A stretch of DNA of 64,000 bases from Rhodohalobacter barkolensis. GTDB lineage: Bacteria; Bacteroidota; Rhodothermia; Balneolales; Balneolaceae. The position numbers were made by a program, and so were the translations under genes. The notes beneath the pieces were generated by a model. It was not told where the DNA came from and made no database searches. It saw only the letters and a list, made by a program, of their open reading frames with translations. Location: the NCBI RefSeq assembly GCF_002834295.1, contig NZ_PISP01000006.1, forward strand, positions 124,001-188,000, in the 5' to 3' direction. Shown here in pieces: positions 3,341 to 38,644 of the stretch. How positions within the stretch are numbered: position 1 is the first letter of the stretch; every line of letters starts with the position of its first letter.

Positions 3341-4630
3341 CTACTTCTCAAACTTCATCTTCATCAGTGCAGCTGCTATTTCGATAGGTGAAAAATCACC
3401 CTCTGCAAGCGGCTCAAGCTGATCAATATACTCTCGCAATCCACCTTTTTGAAGCACGTCCACAATCTCATCCAGGTGCGACTCCATCTTCGACAGTTGC
3501 ACCTCTTTGGATGATGGCATCGGCAACGGCATCAGCTTTGTACCGATAATTTTTTCAATGAAACGGATGCTTTTTCTCTTCCTTCCGGTAGAAAACGTAA
3601 TGGCCATACCGGATTTTCCCGCGCGTGCAGTACGTCCAATTCGGTGTACATAAAATTCCGGATCTTGCGGTACATCGTAGTTAAATACGATATCAATATC
3701 ATCCACGTCCAGTCCGCGAGCGGCAACATCGGTTGCAACCAACAGCTCAATCTTTCCGTTTCTGAATTTATTCATCACCTTGTCGCGAACATTCTGGCGC
3801 ATATCGCCATGAAGGGCATCAGCGGCAAATCCGCGAGCTTGAAATTCCTGTACAAGTGAATCGCATCTGCGTTTGGTATTTGAGAAAACGAGAGTCAGAT
3901 TGGCTCCCGTCATATCAATTACGCGTGAGATTGCTTCAACCCGCATAGAGTCGCGCACTTCCATGACGTACTGCTCTACACCTTCAGCTGTTTGAGCTTT
4001 GCCTTCCACTTTGATCATTTCGGGATGATCCATCCACTTATTCATGATATTCTTAATCGCTTTTGGAACAGTTGCTGAGAACATGATCGTTTGCGATTTC
4101 CCTTTACTGTAACTTAAAATCTGCTCCAGATCTTCGCGAAAACCCATATTGAGCATCTCATCGGCTTCATCAAGCACCACCATTTCGAGAGCTCCCAATT
4201 TGAGCGTACCGCGTTTCAGGTGATCGATGACTCGTCCCGGAGTTCCCACAACAATCTGAGCTCCTTTTTTCAGAGCTTTAAGTTGTCTGCTGATCGGTTG
4301 GCCACCATAAACCGGCACGGTAAATACACCGTTGACGTGCTTGGCAAGTTTTATCAGTTCGCCTGTAACCTGAATGGCCAGTTCGCGTGTAGGAGTTAAA
4401 ATTAAAACGCTTGGTGATTTGGAACCTTTGTTGGCCATCTGAAGAGCAGGTATTCCAAAAGCGGCCGTTTTACCTGTTCCCGTTTGAGCCTGTCCTACCA
4501 GGTCTTTTCCCGCTAATATTTCGGGTATACATTTTTCCTGGATGGATGTCGGAGCCTCAAAGCCCATATCGTTTACGGCTTTGAGAATTTCAGGCTGAAT
4601 TCCCAGCGCTGAAAAAGAAGAATTTTTCAT
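3341..4630 (-). CDS. DEAD-box ATP-dependent RNA helicase
   Basis: 429 aa from the ATG at 4630; a 22-residue upstream extension is possible but would start before the usual Q-motif spacing. All core motifs are intact: Q motif (TSIQ), motif I AQTGTGKT, Ia PTRELA, Ib TPGR, II DEAD, III SAT, IV LVFSNT, V ARGLDV and VI HRIGRTAR. The short C-terminal tail lacks the dsRNA-binding or basic extensions of long CsdA types. It probably unwinds RNA in ribosome assembly or mRNA decay in the cytoplasm. A second, degenerate member of the superfamily lies at 37274. Confidence 0.93.
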   Translation of the reverse strand: MKNSSFSALGIQPEILKAVNDMGFEAPTSIQEKCIPEILAGKDLVGQAQTGTGKTAAFGIPALQMANKGSKSPSVLILTPTRELAIQVTGELIKLAKHVNGVFTVPVYGGQPISRQLKALKKGAQIVVGTPGRVIDHLKRGTLKLGALEMVVLDEADEMLNMGFREDLEQILSYSKGKSQTIMFSATVPKAIKNIMNKWMDHPEMIKVEGKAQTAEGVEQYVMEVRDSMRVEAISRVIDMTGANLTLVFSNTKRRCDSLVQEFQARGFAADALHGDMRQNVRDKVMNKFRNGKIELLVATDVAARGLDVDDIDIVFNYDVPQDPEFYVHRIGRTARAGKSGMAITFSTGRKRKSIRFIEKIIGTKLMPLPMPSSKEVQLSKMESHLDEIVDVLQKGGLREYIDQLEPLAEGDFSPIEIAAALMKMKFEK

Positions 4631-34174: not shown

Positions 34175-34534
34175 TTACTCTTCTATATCCAGATCTTCCT
34201 GTTCAGGCACTGCTGACTGAGTTTGAGATGGTGCAGAAAATTCGGATGGATCAACATTTTCCATCGCAGATTGCTGAATGGTGCTTTGTCCACTGCCGCC
34301 ACGATCAATCGCAAAGTTAGCCAATACACTCAAAGCTAAAAAGAGTGCTGCTAAAATGGATGTTGTTTTTGAAAGCAGATCAGCTGTTCTTCGCGCACCC
34401 ATAGATGCACCACCTGCCATTCCGGCTGCAAGGCCGCCGGATAAACCTTCTTTCTGTCCGGGTTGAAGCAAAATAACTACAATTAACAGAAAGCAGATCA
34501 GAGTAATAATTGAAACAATAATTCCGTATAACAT
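34175..34534 (-). CDS. secG: Protein translocase subunit SecG
   Basis: 119 aa. Two TM segments flank the diagnostic LLQPGQKEGLSGGLAAG and SMGARRTADLLSKTT loop; the C-terminal ~40 residues form an acidic Ser/Gln-rich tail ending EEQEDLDIEE-like sequence, common in this group. Part of the SecYEG channel in the inner membrane. Start ATG at 34534. Confidence 0.94.
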   Translation of the reverse strand: MLYGIIVSIITLICFLLIVVILLQPGQKEGLSGGLAAGMAGGASMGARRTADLLSKTTSILAALFLALSVLANFAIDRGGSGQSTIQQSAMENVDPSEFSAPSQTQSAVPEQEDLDIEE

Positions 34535-34661
34535 ACTGTATAAATCTTTTCTTTAATTCAGAGAACTCTAAAGATATAACTAATTGTACTTTTAAAAAAG
34601 GTATTTATTAAATAACGTACAGCCCGATATTTATTGCAAAAATTAGTACCATTCTTTTGAT

Positions 34662-35585
34662 ATGGATAATGAAATTCAAACCAGTTTAACTGACTTTTTC
34701 CGCCAGATTCCATCAAACTTCAGTCATGTGATTGAGTCTGTTGTAATCATTATTGTTCTCATTCTTGTCCATATCATTATTAAACGCATCGTAAGGCGCC
34801 AAACAGATGATGAAGCAATTCGGTATAAGTGGCGCAAGAATTTAGCGTATATCCTCAGTTTTTTCGGATTTATTATTATCGGAAGAATTTGGTTTGAGGG
34901 AGTTGGGTCGCTGGCCACATTTTTAGGGCTGCTCTCAGCCGGCTTAGCTATTGCACTGCGCGACCCCGTAACCGACATGGCCGGCTGGGTATTTTTAATA
35001 TGGAGAAAACCGTTTCAGGTTGGCGATCGAATTCAGATCGGAGATACCAAGGGTGACGTCATCGATATTCGGTTCTTTAAGTTCAGCCTCCTCGAAATCG
35101 GGAACTGGGTAAGTGCAGATCAAAGTACCGGAAGAGTCATTCATATGCCCAATCATTTTATTTTAAGAGAATCCATTTTCAACTCTACCAGCGATTTCGA
35201 TTTCCTATGGAATGAAATCCCTATTGTTGTCACATTCGAAAGTGATTGGAAACGTGCCAAAGAGATTTTAACTGATATCGTCCAGAACCATATGGAAGAT
35301 TATGTTTTGGATGCTGAAGAGCAGGTCCGGCGTGCCACAAAATCATATCTGATCCGATATAAAAATTTAACCCCAATTGTCTATACAGAAGTAGTGGATA
35401 TCGGGGTAAAACTTACCATTCGCCACCTTTCTCACGCGCGTAAGCGCCGGGGAATCAACCAAACTATTTGGGAAGATATTTTGGATCGATTTGATCAGGA
35501 AGACAGCATCGATTTTGCATATAGCACACTTCGTATCTATCAAAATCAAATTGAGGGCAAATCCGGTTTAATGCCGGACAGTTAG
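34662..35585 (+). CDS. MscS-family mechanosensitive ion channel
   Basis: 307 aa. One or two TM segments (about 22-43 and 63-82) lead to the pore-lining helix FLGLLSAGLAIALRDPVTDMAG (about 86-108), then the beta domain with FQVGDRIQIGDTKGDVIDI and an alpha/beta C-terminal region. It should open on membrane tension during hypo-osmotic shock. Starts ATG, divergent from secG. Confidence 0.92.
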   Translation: MDNEIQTSLTDFFRQIPSNFSHVIESVVIIIVLILVHIIIKRIVRRQTDDEAIRYKWRKNLAYILSFFGFIIIGRIWFEGVGSLATFLGLLSAGLAIALRDPVTDMAGWVFLIWRKPFQVGDRIQIGDTKGDVIDIRFFKFSLLEIGNWVSADQSTGRVIHMPNHFILRESIFNSTSDFDFLWNEIPIVVTFESDWKRAKEILTDIVQNHMEDYVLDAEEQVRRATKSYLIRYKNLTPIVYTEVVDIGVKLTIRHLSHARKRRGINQTIWEDILDRFDQEDSIDFAYSTLRIYQNQIEGKSGLMPDS

Positions 35586-35603: not shown

Positions 35604-36227
35604 TTATTTTGGTATGGGCTGAACCAGTTTCTCGTTGTTGTTGGAAGGATCGTTCACCTTCTCACTCACCCGCAGAACAGAAAGATCCGTTAACAGAAAC
35701 AAGCTTTTTGCTTCATCAATCAGCTCTGAAACATCACTTTCACTTTTGTCATCAAGCCACTTCCCGGATAGATTTTGATCCAGTAAAAGCGGCATTGTCT
35801 CCGACATTGGGTTTATCAATACATTTGAAGGCTGCGTTACCATTTTAAAAAATCCATTTTTCTCATCAAACAAGCCGGCAACAGCCATTAGCGGTTCATT
35901 TAACATTCGAACAAAGAATGGACTTCCCTTCTCTTTATCATCCTTCCAAACATAAAAACCACTCAGTGGCACAACGCATTTTATCATACCGGTGCTGGAA
36001 AGATCATCTACGGCTTCTTTTGCTCGAACCGTTGTATCCTGAGCGGCTTCACCTCCCCAACGAACCCTCTCTATTGTCAACTCACCGTCTTTTCTGAACA
36101 CAATGGGAATATGCTGTCCCGGAGATAGGTTATAATGAGGCTGAAAAATATTATCCCTGTTCGATTCTAAGTTGAAATAGTTTTCGACAGATTCTTTACC
36201 GGCAAAAAAGGCGACACGTTTAGCCAT
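35604..36227 (-). CDS. SRAP (YedK/HMCES)-like protein lacking the catalytic residues
   Basis: 207 aa. The fold is recognisable: QPHYNLSPGQHIPIV, ERVRWGG, IKCVVPLSGFYVWKDD, PFFVRMLNEP and MPLLLDQ match SRAP blocks in order. However the Cys2 that crosslinks abasic DNA is Ala2 (start MAKR, not MCGR), the conserved Asn of NARAET is Thr66, the Glu of GFYEWK is Val93, and the His of HDRMP is Ser142. In YedK these residues (C2, N75, E105, H160) form the active site. It is therefore probably a non-crosslinking member. No alternative start restores a Cys. Confidence 0.8.
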   Translation of the reverse strand: MAKRVAFFAGKESVENYFNLESNRDNIFQPHYNLSPGQHIPIVFRKDGELTIERVRWGGEAAQDTTVRAKEAVDDLSSTGMIKCVVPLSGFYVWKDDKEKGSPFFVRMLNEPLMAVAGLFDEKNGFFKMVTQPSNVLINPMSETMPLLLDQNLSGKWLDDKSESDVSELIDEAKSLFLLTDLSVLRVSEKVNDPSNNNEKLVQPIPK

Positions 36228-36308: not shown

Positions 36309-37172
36309 GTGAAAATTCTCTTTTATAATTCATACGAAAATCGTCTACGGTCATTTTGGAGAATTTTAGTAGTTACCGCCATTTTACTTGCCATACTGGC
36401 CTCCGTAGGATATTGGGGCTTGGGCGGTTACAGTTTTACCATTGTGCTCGCATTAGCTATGATCGGAATTTTGTGGTTAGGTTCCCAAAAATTAGATCAG
36501 CGGCCACTCTCTGAATACGGCTTTGAGTATTCTGTTGCTTGGGTAAGAGATTTCGTTGCCGGTAATCTTCTTGCTGCTTTGGCAATGGGAGGTATCGTAC
36601 TCATACATCTGGGTATGGACTGGGTTGATATCTCATTAGGTCAGTTCAAAAACCCCGGTTATGAATTCTATTATGGAATGGCAATAAGCTTGTTCTTTAT
36701 GGCAGCCGTAAGTTTTTGGGAAGAAACCTACTTCAGAAGCTATCTGATTCGAAATCTTCAGGAGGGTCTTCATTTCACTAAAAGCGGGAAAACGTTTGCT
36801 GTAATTGGAGCAGTTATTTTATCATCTGTGTTTTTTGGACTTACTCATCTTGGAAATCCTAATGCCTCGTGGATTTCAACTTTAAATATATCAATTGCTG
36901 GAATGGTGTTCGCATATCCTTATATTATAACAAAGAGTATAGCTATTCCGCTTGGAATGCATCTGTCCTGGAATTATTTTCAGGGCGCGGTTTTTGGATT
37001 ACCGGTCAGCGGCAACCAATTTGAACATATGCTTATGGTTGCAGAAGCAACCGGTCCTGAAAGCTTTACCGGAGGAAGCTTCGGGCCCGAGGCTGGAGCT
37101 GCAGGACTTTTAGGGCTGATGATTTTGCTGACGCTGAATGAAATCTATATAACCGTATTTTATAATAATTAA
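36309..37172 (+). CDS. CPBP-family intramembrane glutamic endopeptidase (Abi/CAAX-like)
   Basis: 287 aa with about eight TM segments. CPBP motif 1 is EETYFR (EExxxR, about 140-145), motif 2 FGLTHLGNPN, and motif 3 HLSWNYFQG (HxxxN). Such proteases cleave within or near the membrane and include bacteriocin-immunity and prenyl-protein-processing members; the substrate here is unknown. Start is GTG at 36309. A second CPBP protein is at 59647. Confidence 0.88.
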   Translation: MKILFYNSYENRLRSFWRILVVTAILLAILASVGYWGLGGYSFTIVLALAMIGILWLGSQKLDQRPLSEYGFEYSVAWVRDFVAGNLLAALAMGGIVLIHLGMDWVDISLGQFKNPGYEFYYGMAISLFFMAAVSFWEETYFRSYLIRNLQEGLHFTKSGKTFAVIGAVILSSVFFGLTHLGNPNASWISTLNISIAGMVFAYPYIITKSIAIPLGMHLSWNYFQGAVFGLPVSGNQFEHMLMVAEATGPESFTGGSFGPEAGAAGLLGLMILLTLNEIYITVFYNN

Positions 37173-37273
37173 ATAAATGGCTGCCGGTACTATTCAGGGC
37201 TGAGCCATATACCGGATAAATGATGCCGGTGTTTTATAATTGAAATATTGACTAAATAAGTGAGGTTACAACG

Positions 37274-38644
37274 TTGTCGTTTAATCAATTTCGACTAAGT
37301 TCCGATATTTTGAAGGGGTTGAAAGATGTTAAAATTGAAAGCCCCTCACCACTACAAAAGAAAATATTTAAAGCTGTACAAGAAGGATCCGATCTCGTAA
37401 TAAATACTTCAACAGACGATAAACCGGAAGTGGGTTATCTGATTAATCTGTTGAATGATATTGCAAAAACTGATCGACGTCAGGGTACCAAAGGCATAAT
37501 TTTAGCACCAGACAGTGAGCGCGCCAAATTCTTGGACGAGTGGATCTGGGCTATTGGATATCATGCATCGATAGAGAGTGCATGCATTACATCTGATGGA
37601 AATCCAAAGGAGCAGTTAAATGCACTATCTGCAGGACCGGTAGTTGTAGTAGCTACCCCTGAGGAGTTGTCAGGACTGCTGGAAGACGGAAAAATTGTAT
37701 TTCGTGAGGTACAGCAGTTAATCGTTGATCAGGCTGAAAAGGTCCAGAATTGGAATGCTGTTGAAACAGTTTCTACTCGCATCATTAGCAAATGTCAGCG
37801 CATCTTTACTGCAGCTAAGGATAGCAAAGATCTGCGAGAGGCTGAGGATAAGCTTCTCACCGAACCGCAATTGGTAACGCTCTCCAAAAAATCACCACCC
37901 GCTGATAAACCTAAAGAGGAGAAAAAGCCTGAGATTACCAAAGATCTGACTCAGTATTACATCAACGTGCCGCCAAGATCTAAAATCTCGACCTTGATGG
38001 CCCATCTGGATAACAACAAGAGTGATACCGTTGTTATTTTTACGGCTTCGCGAAGAACTGCTGATCGACTCTATAAAATTTTAAGAAAGAGCAATCGCCG
38101 GGCTGTCAGCATCCACGATCAACTGGCTAAAGATACGTTTGAAGAACGTTTTAACCGGTTTACTTCGGGTGATGTCCAGCATCTCATCATTGGTGACATG
38201 ACTGCGAAAGATTTGCCTTTGGAGCATGCTACTCAGGTTATTAATTATGATGTACCAGAAGAAGTTGAAGAGTATAAACTGAGGGCAGAGCTTGTCGGTG
38301 ACGGCAAAGCGACCCGAATCCTCTCTTTGGTTTCTAAACAAGACAGAGGAGATATTCAGGTAATTTGTAAATCACTGGGTTATGCCCCTGAAGAGGTTCC
38401 ACTTCCGAAGAGTGTTAAGGATAAAATTTCCTCAAACAAAAAAGGGAAGCGCAACGGAAGCAAGCGTGACAAATCTAAGAATCAAAAAAGTGGAAAAGGC
38501 AAAAAGCGTGGCTCAAAAAGACAGGAGAGCAAAAAACAACATGGGCTGCCGCGACCAACTTTTGATCAACTTGAAGGTGGACGAACCGGCAAAAAGAAAG
38601 AGGAGAAAGGGCTTGTTGGCTTTTTCAAAAAGCTCTTCTCTTAA
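37274..38644 (+). CDS. Degenerate DEAD-box-like protein without ATPase motifs
   Basis: 456 aa, start TTG 37274 with GAGGT 8 bases upstream. The layout follows DEAD-box helicases: Q-like SPSPLQKKIFKAV, Ia-like ILAPDSERAKF, Ib-like ATPEEL, domain 2 DTVVIFTASRRTADRLY, SIHDQLAKDTFEERFNRFTSGDVQHLI and ATQVINYDVPEE. But motif I reads INTSTDDKP instead of AxTGxGKT, motif II is VDQAEK instead of DEAD, motif III is TAA, motif V lacks RGxD and motif VI (HRxGRxxR) is gone. The tail (about 395-456) is very Lys/Arg/Ser-rich, probably RNA-binding. Likely an RNA-associated pseudohelicase; its intact frame argues against decay. Confidence 0.8.
   Translation: MSFNQFRLSSDILKGLKDVKIESPSPLQKKIFKAVQEGSDLVINTSTDDKPEVGYLINLLNDIAKTDRRQGTKGIILAPDSERAKFLDEWIWAIGYHASIESACITSDGNPKEQLNALSAGPVVVVATPEELSGLLEDGKIVFREVQQLIVDQAEKVQNWNAVETVSTRIISKCQRIFTAAKDSKDLREAEDKLLTEPQLVTLSKKSPPADKPKEEKKPEITKDLTQYYINVPPRSKISTLMAHLDNNKSDTVVIFTASRRTADRLYKILRKSNRRAVSIHDQLAKDTFEERFNRFTSGDVQHLIIGDMTAKDLPLEHATQVINYDVPEEVEEYKLRAELVGDGKATRILSLVSKQDRGDIQVICKSLGYAPEEVPLPKSVKDKISSNKKGKRNGSKRDKSKNQKSGKGKKRGSKRQESKKQHGLPRPTFDQLEGGRTGKKKEEKGLVGFFKKLFS

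Follow-up and report, generated by a model that had tools for sequence, protein, structure and literature searches.

Background

A 2022 count gave only two proposed pseudohelicases, PriA of Deinococcus radiodurans being the first and Utp25 the second (PMC9539457). Utp25 is a pseudohelicase of the eukaryotic SSU processome and an essential ribosome-assembly factor (PMC9539457); the D. radiodurans PriA has poor Walker motifs and no ATPase, yet retains binding to nucleic acid and to a partner helicase (PMC4504706). This agrees with the view taken in the initial annotation of the locus described here, namely that retained pseudoenzymes of this class are uncommon in bacteria. In the open-access literature, neither a bacterial DEAD-box pseudohelicase or pseudoenzyme family nor a paper covering both DEAD-box proteins and Balneolaceae was found. 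Here, I describe a gene in a stretch of 64,000 nucleotides of Rhodohalobacter barkolensis (contig NZ_PISP01000006.1, positions 124,001 to 188,000; hereafter the window, to which the coordinates refer), whose product, judging from sequence, synteny, tree and selection, is almost certainly a retained pseudoenzyme that has lost both ATP binding and ATP hydrolysis. The organism belongs to the Balneolaceae, a family of salt-loving bacteria.

The Balneolaceae pseudohelicase has its nearest precedents in Utp25 and the D. radiodurans PriA. With Utp25 it shares a predicted DEAD-box fold with vestigial motifs, a proposed origin by duplication and divergence, and retention without a working helicase site; unlike Utp25, which by description is eukaryotic, it goes back to an RhlE-type gene of bacteria and carries tail motifs of its own, and no Utp25 match was listed in the Pfam scan of the window protein. 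PriA is likewise a bacterial helicase retained despite the loss of its ATPase, but it is a DNA helicase of another family with milder motif loss, and it replaces the active enzyme whereas the Balneolaceae protein sits beside an active paralogue. As for the RhlE/CshA-type helicases, the likeness extends to the two RecA lobes, the basic tail, the TTG start, the amphipathic C-terminus and a positional counterpart in the sister family f3, while the differences are the loss or alteration of the ATPase motifs other than the Q motif, a linker of free length and a tail motif of its own; by its sequence, the protein would be inactive as a helicase. The locus would offer a bacterial DEAD-box case with a readable history, that is, an active counterpart at the locus in f3, an active paralogue within the genome, and around 80 species with the inactive copy.

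Gene and domain layout

The intact reading frame at 37274-38644 is as given in the initial annotation. The two-domain DEAD-box layout described there is borne out by Pfam matches above cut-off to DEAD (7.6e-11) and Helicase_C (1.6e-11), and in phmmer residues 2-365 are matched by CshA and eIF4A-type helicases. The protein misses the NCBIfam equivalog cut-offs for CshA (134 bits vs 646) and RhlE (111 vs 743), which is a weak test, since the active gene at position 3341 of the window likewise falls below its cut-offs. No Rfam match for a structured RNA was obtained at the locus. The features are as follows.

37274..38644, + strand: pseudohelicase gene, 456 aa (ORF and translation, Pfam, motif alignment)
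37262..37266, + strand: Shine-Dalgarno-like GAGGT, 7-8 nt upstream of the TTG start (read in the sequence)
37274..37888, + strand: RecA1 lobe, aa 1-205, relaxed, Q-motif F3 and Q28 kept (AlphaFold, VIA, conservation)
37400..37426, + strand: former motif I (P-loop), reads INTSTDDKP (orthologue counts)
37727..37738, + strand: former motif II, reads DQAE (orthologue counts)
37811..37819, + strand: former motif III, reads AAK (motif alignment)
37889..37948, + strand: inter-lobe linker, its start low-confidence or disordered (AlphaFold, linker-length comparison)
37949..38428, + strand: RecA2 lobe, aa 226-385, best-kept part (conservation)
38192..38218, + strand: former motif V, reads GDMTAKDLP (motif alignment)
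38279..38302, + strand: former motif VI, reads LRAELVGD, YRAELVG in much of the family (orthologue counts)
38429..38545, + strand: basic tail, aa 386-424, predicted disordered (AlphaFold, composition)
38546..38590, + strand: conserved tail motif LPRPTFDQLEGGRTG (orthologue counts, tail search)
38609..38641, + strand: C-terminal amphipathic motif GLVGFFKKLFS (orthologue alignment, hydrophobic moment)

An AlphaFold model built with 51 orthologues has a mean pLDDT of 84.8, with values above 90 across most of both lobes and a disordered tail. Residues 1-383 match CshA, DDX6 and eIF4A (Foldseek, VIA), and RecA1 alone superposes on the CshA N-terminal domain at 1.6 A over 198 residues; superposing the full length gives a high rmsd, which a different lobe orientation would explain, and that orientation is unreliable in both models (pTM 0.50 and 0.43). 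The second model, of a member of the DEAH clade, has the same layout at lower confidence and a low-confidence helix at the C-terminal end. The structural comparison that had been proposed as a check thus turns out in favour of the initial annotation, both lobes being predicted as RecA-like and together giving the two tandem RecA-like domains of an SF2 helicase core.

Ancient loss of the ATPase motifs

At the aligned motifs I, II, III, V and VI, three further DEAD-box genes, retrieved from the genome with the pseudohelicase as query, read AQTGTGKT, DEAD, SAT, TDxxARGxD and HRIGRTxR; the window protein reads TSTDDKPE, DQAE, AAK, GDMTAKDLP and LRAELVGD, and lacks the GKT, DEAD, SAT and HRIGRxxR that mark motifs I, II, III and VI of an active DEAD-box ATPase. 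The alterations first described for motifs I, II, V and VI are confirmed, the earlier reading of motif III as TAA being one residue off. Some elements survive, namely the two Q-motif residues (Phe and Gln), the Phe of motif IV and the leading Asp of motif II.

Among 73 full-length Balneolaceae orthologues the P-loop GKT is found in none (0/73), the arginine finger of motif VI is replaced by Leu (70) or Met (3), and motif V and the two motif VI arginines are gone from all or almost all. Motif II is more variable: its Glu is kept in 29/73 and its first Asp in 72/73, a DEAH/DEAD-like form survives in some clades, and one clade retains DEAH. The upstream Phe and Gln of the DEAD-box Q motif are present (Phe3 in 72/73, Gln28 in 73/73); the motif IV Phe (F256) and NYDxP are near-invariant and R337 occurs in 73/73. 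As to the RNA contacts of RecA2, the QxxR arginine is kept in 11/73 and the motif V threonine in 0/73, and the GG is lost. Since intact motifs occur in none of the 73, the motif loss is ancient and conserved, and is not the recent decay to which orthologues with intact motifs would have pointed.

The conservation of Phe3, Gln28 and the first motif II Asp would also suit a nucleotide-sensing switch, with an adenine nucleotide bound via the retained Q motif and not hydrolysed. However, these residues may be structural, GKT, motif V and the motif VI arginines are missing throughout or almost so, the motif II Glu is missing in most rows, and the freed linker (see below) makes an in-register closure of the lobes doubtful, all of which makes such a switch very improbable. 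What the data support is an ancient, selected and syntenic family that has lost its ATPase apparatus, from which I infer that the pseudohelicase acts without ATP.

Distribution and selection in Balneolaceae

A search of 92 Balneolaceae genomes gave an orthologue match at E<=1e-50 in 77, with no stop codon within any of these matches. Five further genomes, in which the gene seemed absent at first sight because this threshold is too strict for divergent copies, hold very divergent ones (G106, G110 and G111 of the reduced genus g5, G112 and G113 of g32), so that the orthologue is present in at least 82 of the 92, usually at a single conserved locus. For G002 a fragment lies at the start of a contig, and G001, G091 and G097 are not judgeable (incomplete genome or contig end). 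In g5, no copy was detected in five genomes (G031, G104, G105, G108, G109) and a sixth, G107, carries at the conserved locus a broken one with several stops (L179:8529-9880); the pseudohelicase is therefore dispensable there.

Orthologue pairs with unsaturated synonymous sites have dN/dS values of 0.027-0.113. As to pseudohelicases of this origin elsewhere in the class, family-profile scores leave a gap between Balneolaceae (at least ~400 bits) and canonical helicases (at most 288). A recent pseudogene or a sequencing error was considered and is ruled out by the family-wide conservation and dN/dS. A functionless gene in slow decay might leave just such traces as the broken G107 copy and the five g5 genomes lacking a detectable one, but the low dN/dS (0.03-0.11), the conserved start and Shine-Dalgarno sequence, the lack of stops in the matches of the 77 genomes and a newly conserved tail largely refute it for most of the family, and it can hardly be credited. 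It is rather the retained pseudoenzyme of the initial annotation that dN/dS, synteny and family-wide retention sustain.

Locus and origin

Upstream of the pseudohelicase gene, the window contains the following genes, used in the gene-order comparison.

36309..37172, + strand: CPBP/Rce1-like membrane protease, upstream neighbour on the same strand
35604..36227, - strand: SRAP protein, synteny marker
34647..35585, + strand: MscS-type channel, synteny marker
34175..34552, - strand: SecG, synteny marker

The order SecG(-), MscS(+), SRAP(-), CPBP(+), pseudohelicase(+) is that of the window and of most of the Balneolaceae wherever the contig shows the locus. Family f3, a sister family within the order, has the SecG/MscS/SRAP/CPBP block with an intact DEAD-box helicase (600-660 aa) as its last member, and f2 has an intact DEAD-box gene next after CPBP. 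In f1, f2 and f3 alike, the protease gene immediately precedes the DEAD-box gene; this arrangement predates the loss of the ATPase and possibly reflects a functional link.

An intact RhlE-type helicase is encoded elsewhere in nearly every Balneolaceae genome; in R. barkolensis it is the closest paralogue, an active RhlE-type helicase outside the window (G000:C1:950373). The complete DEAD-box paralogue pointed out earlier at 3341 is real and of the DeaD/CshA type; as a parent of the pseudohelicase it is ruled out by the paralogue search and the tree, not being the closest one.

In a tree of 58 proteins, the pseudohelicases form one clade (support 100/100, long stem of 1.82) that adjoins the Balneolaceae RhlE-type helicases (node 89/85), with the helicases of f3, f4 and f5 outside; upon removal of the longest branches the support for joining pseudohelicases and canonical helicases is 92/83. 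The tree favours the Balneolaceae helicase as sister, but alternatives, including a grouping with the f3 locus gene, are not rejected (AU p 0.136). The tree and the intact f3 gene at the corresponding locus make it firm that the pseudohelicase goes back to a duplicated active helicase; the exact timing is less certain. An RhlE-type DEAD-box helicase would have duplicated at or before the base of the Balneolaceae, whereupon the copy at the ancestral SecG/MscS/SRAP/CPBP locus would have lost ATP binding and hydrolysis and been retained as a pseudoenzyme.

Shifted constraint and the conserved tail

Constraint has moved along the protein: RecA1 is relaxed, RecA2 held, the linker freed, and the tail has gained motifs. 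In the 11 genomes that hold both helicase and pseudohelicase, mean pairwise identity is 69% (helicase) vs 43% (pseudohelicase) for RecA1, 68% vs 60% for RecA2, and 28% vs 46% for the tail. The inter-lobe linker measures 12-13 aa in 32/32 canonical helicases vs 20-207 aa in the pseudohelicases, whose lobes would no longer need to close on ATP, leaving the linker free in length. In one clade (L083, L085, L087, L088, L091, L105, L108), the long, acidic-looking linker contains one to three spaced copies of KLxxASVxVVL.

The basic tail, as proposed at the outset, is there (17 K/R in the 39 residues 386-424), but the two conserved motifs in which it ends had been overlooked: LPRPxYDxLSGGRxG and, at the very end, GxxGFxKKLF, forms of both being found in 72 of the 73 orthologues. 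A tail search of 296 genomes of the phylum matched only Balneolaceae, once per genome, bar one weak match (E 0.03). In one sequence (L079, from G092), the frame departs from the conserved tail upstream of the LPRP motif, through either a frameshift or an assembly error. The terminal motif was probably inherited, since a looser version of it is found at the C-terminus of the order's canonical RhlE-type helicases; those of Balneolales (L145-L174) have short amphipathic C-termini such as GIWSKVKDIF or GIWGIIKSFI, with a possible shared role in docking or at the membrane.

Catalytically dead paralogues often regulate active relatives, and the pseudohelicase may likewise be a dedicated regulator of G000:C1:950373, whether by competing for its RNAs or its docking site or by pairing with it. 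The paralogue is the closest relative of the pseudohelicase within the genome, the two co-occur in the same genomes, and both have amphipathic ends (GIWGIIKSYIP in the paralogue vs GLVGFFKKLFS), from which a shared dock could follow. Their genes are unlinked, though, no dimerisation domain was found, and the paralogue lacks a counterpart of LPRPxYDxLSGGRxG; such a regulator is unlikely.

The hydrophobic moment of the amphipathic terminal motif is 0.62-0.75; in most rows it exceeds 0.64, the 95th percentile for windows of these proteins. Together with the C-terminal helix of the second model and the adjoining CPBP membrane protease in f1, f2 and f3, this is what a membrane-targeting helix would lead one to expect, by which RNA or RNPs would be tethered to the inner membrane, perhaps near the protease. 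Such a moment is not exceptional, however, and a protein-binding motif would look alike; the end helix is of low confidence, and the genome has no RNase Y match above cut-off, only RNase E/G. I regard membrane tethering as the main role as still less likely than regulation of the paralogue.

Proposed function

Loss of the ATPase parts, strong selection and a conserved tail of its own point to a protein that is probably an RNA-associated adaptor and not an enzyme. In this reading, RNA or an RNP would be bound by the RecA2 lobe together with the basic, disordered tail, and the pair of conserved motifs in the tail would dock a partner protein or the membrane. RNA binding, which the tail had originally suggested, fits the basic residues and is plausible, but it is not certain because the QxxR arginine and the motif V threonine are mostly gone. 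Taken as a whole, an ATP-independent RNA/RNP adaptor derived from a duplicated RhlE-type helicase is the best explanation and a reasonably probable one; for the role itself, an adaptor is slightly more likely than another non-catalytic function. A more specific proposal, tentative and at somewhat less than even chances, is a clade-specific, ATP-independent RNP scaffold that, once duplicated, abandoned the RecA1 site, freed the linker, which in one clade took up short repeated motifs, and evolved a docking tail, and would be a bacterial counterpart of Utp25. The pseudohelicase would allow a test of which portion of a DEAD-box protein functions independently of ATP, and the two short tail motifs should identify a partner.

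Translation starts

The good ribosome binding site of the initial annotation corresponds to the GAGGT before the TTG. This start codon is shared by 71/73 orthologues, with GTG in 1, and GAGG or AAGG upstream is conserved as well. The canonical RhlE-type genes of the order (L145-L174, L184, L002) appear to have a TTG at the same position and no Shine-Dalgarno sequence in 30/32; the pseudohelicases share the TTG but have a strong Shine-Dalgarno sequence. This pattern could reflect a conserved regulation at the level of the start codon.
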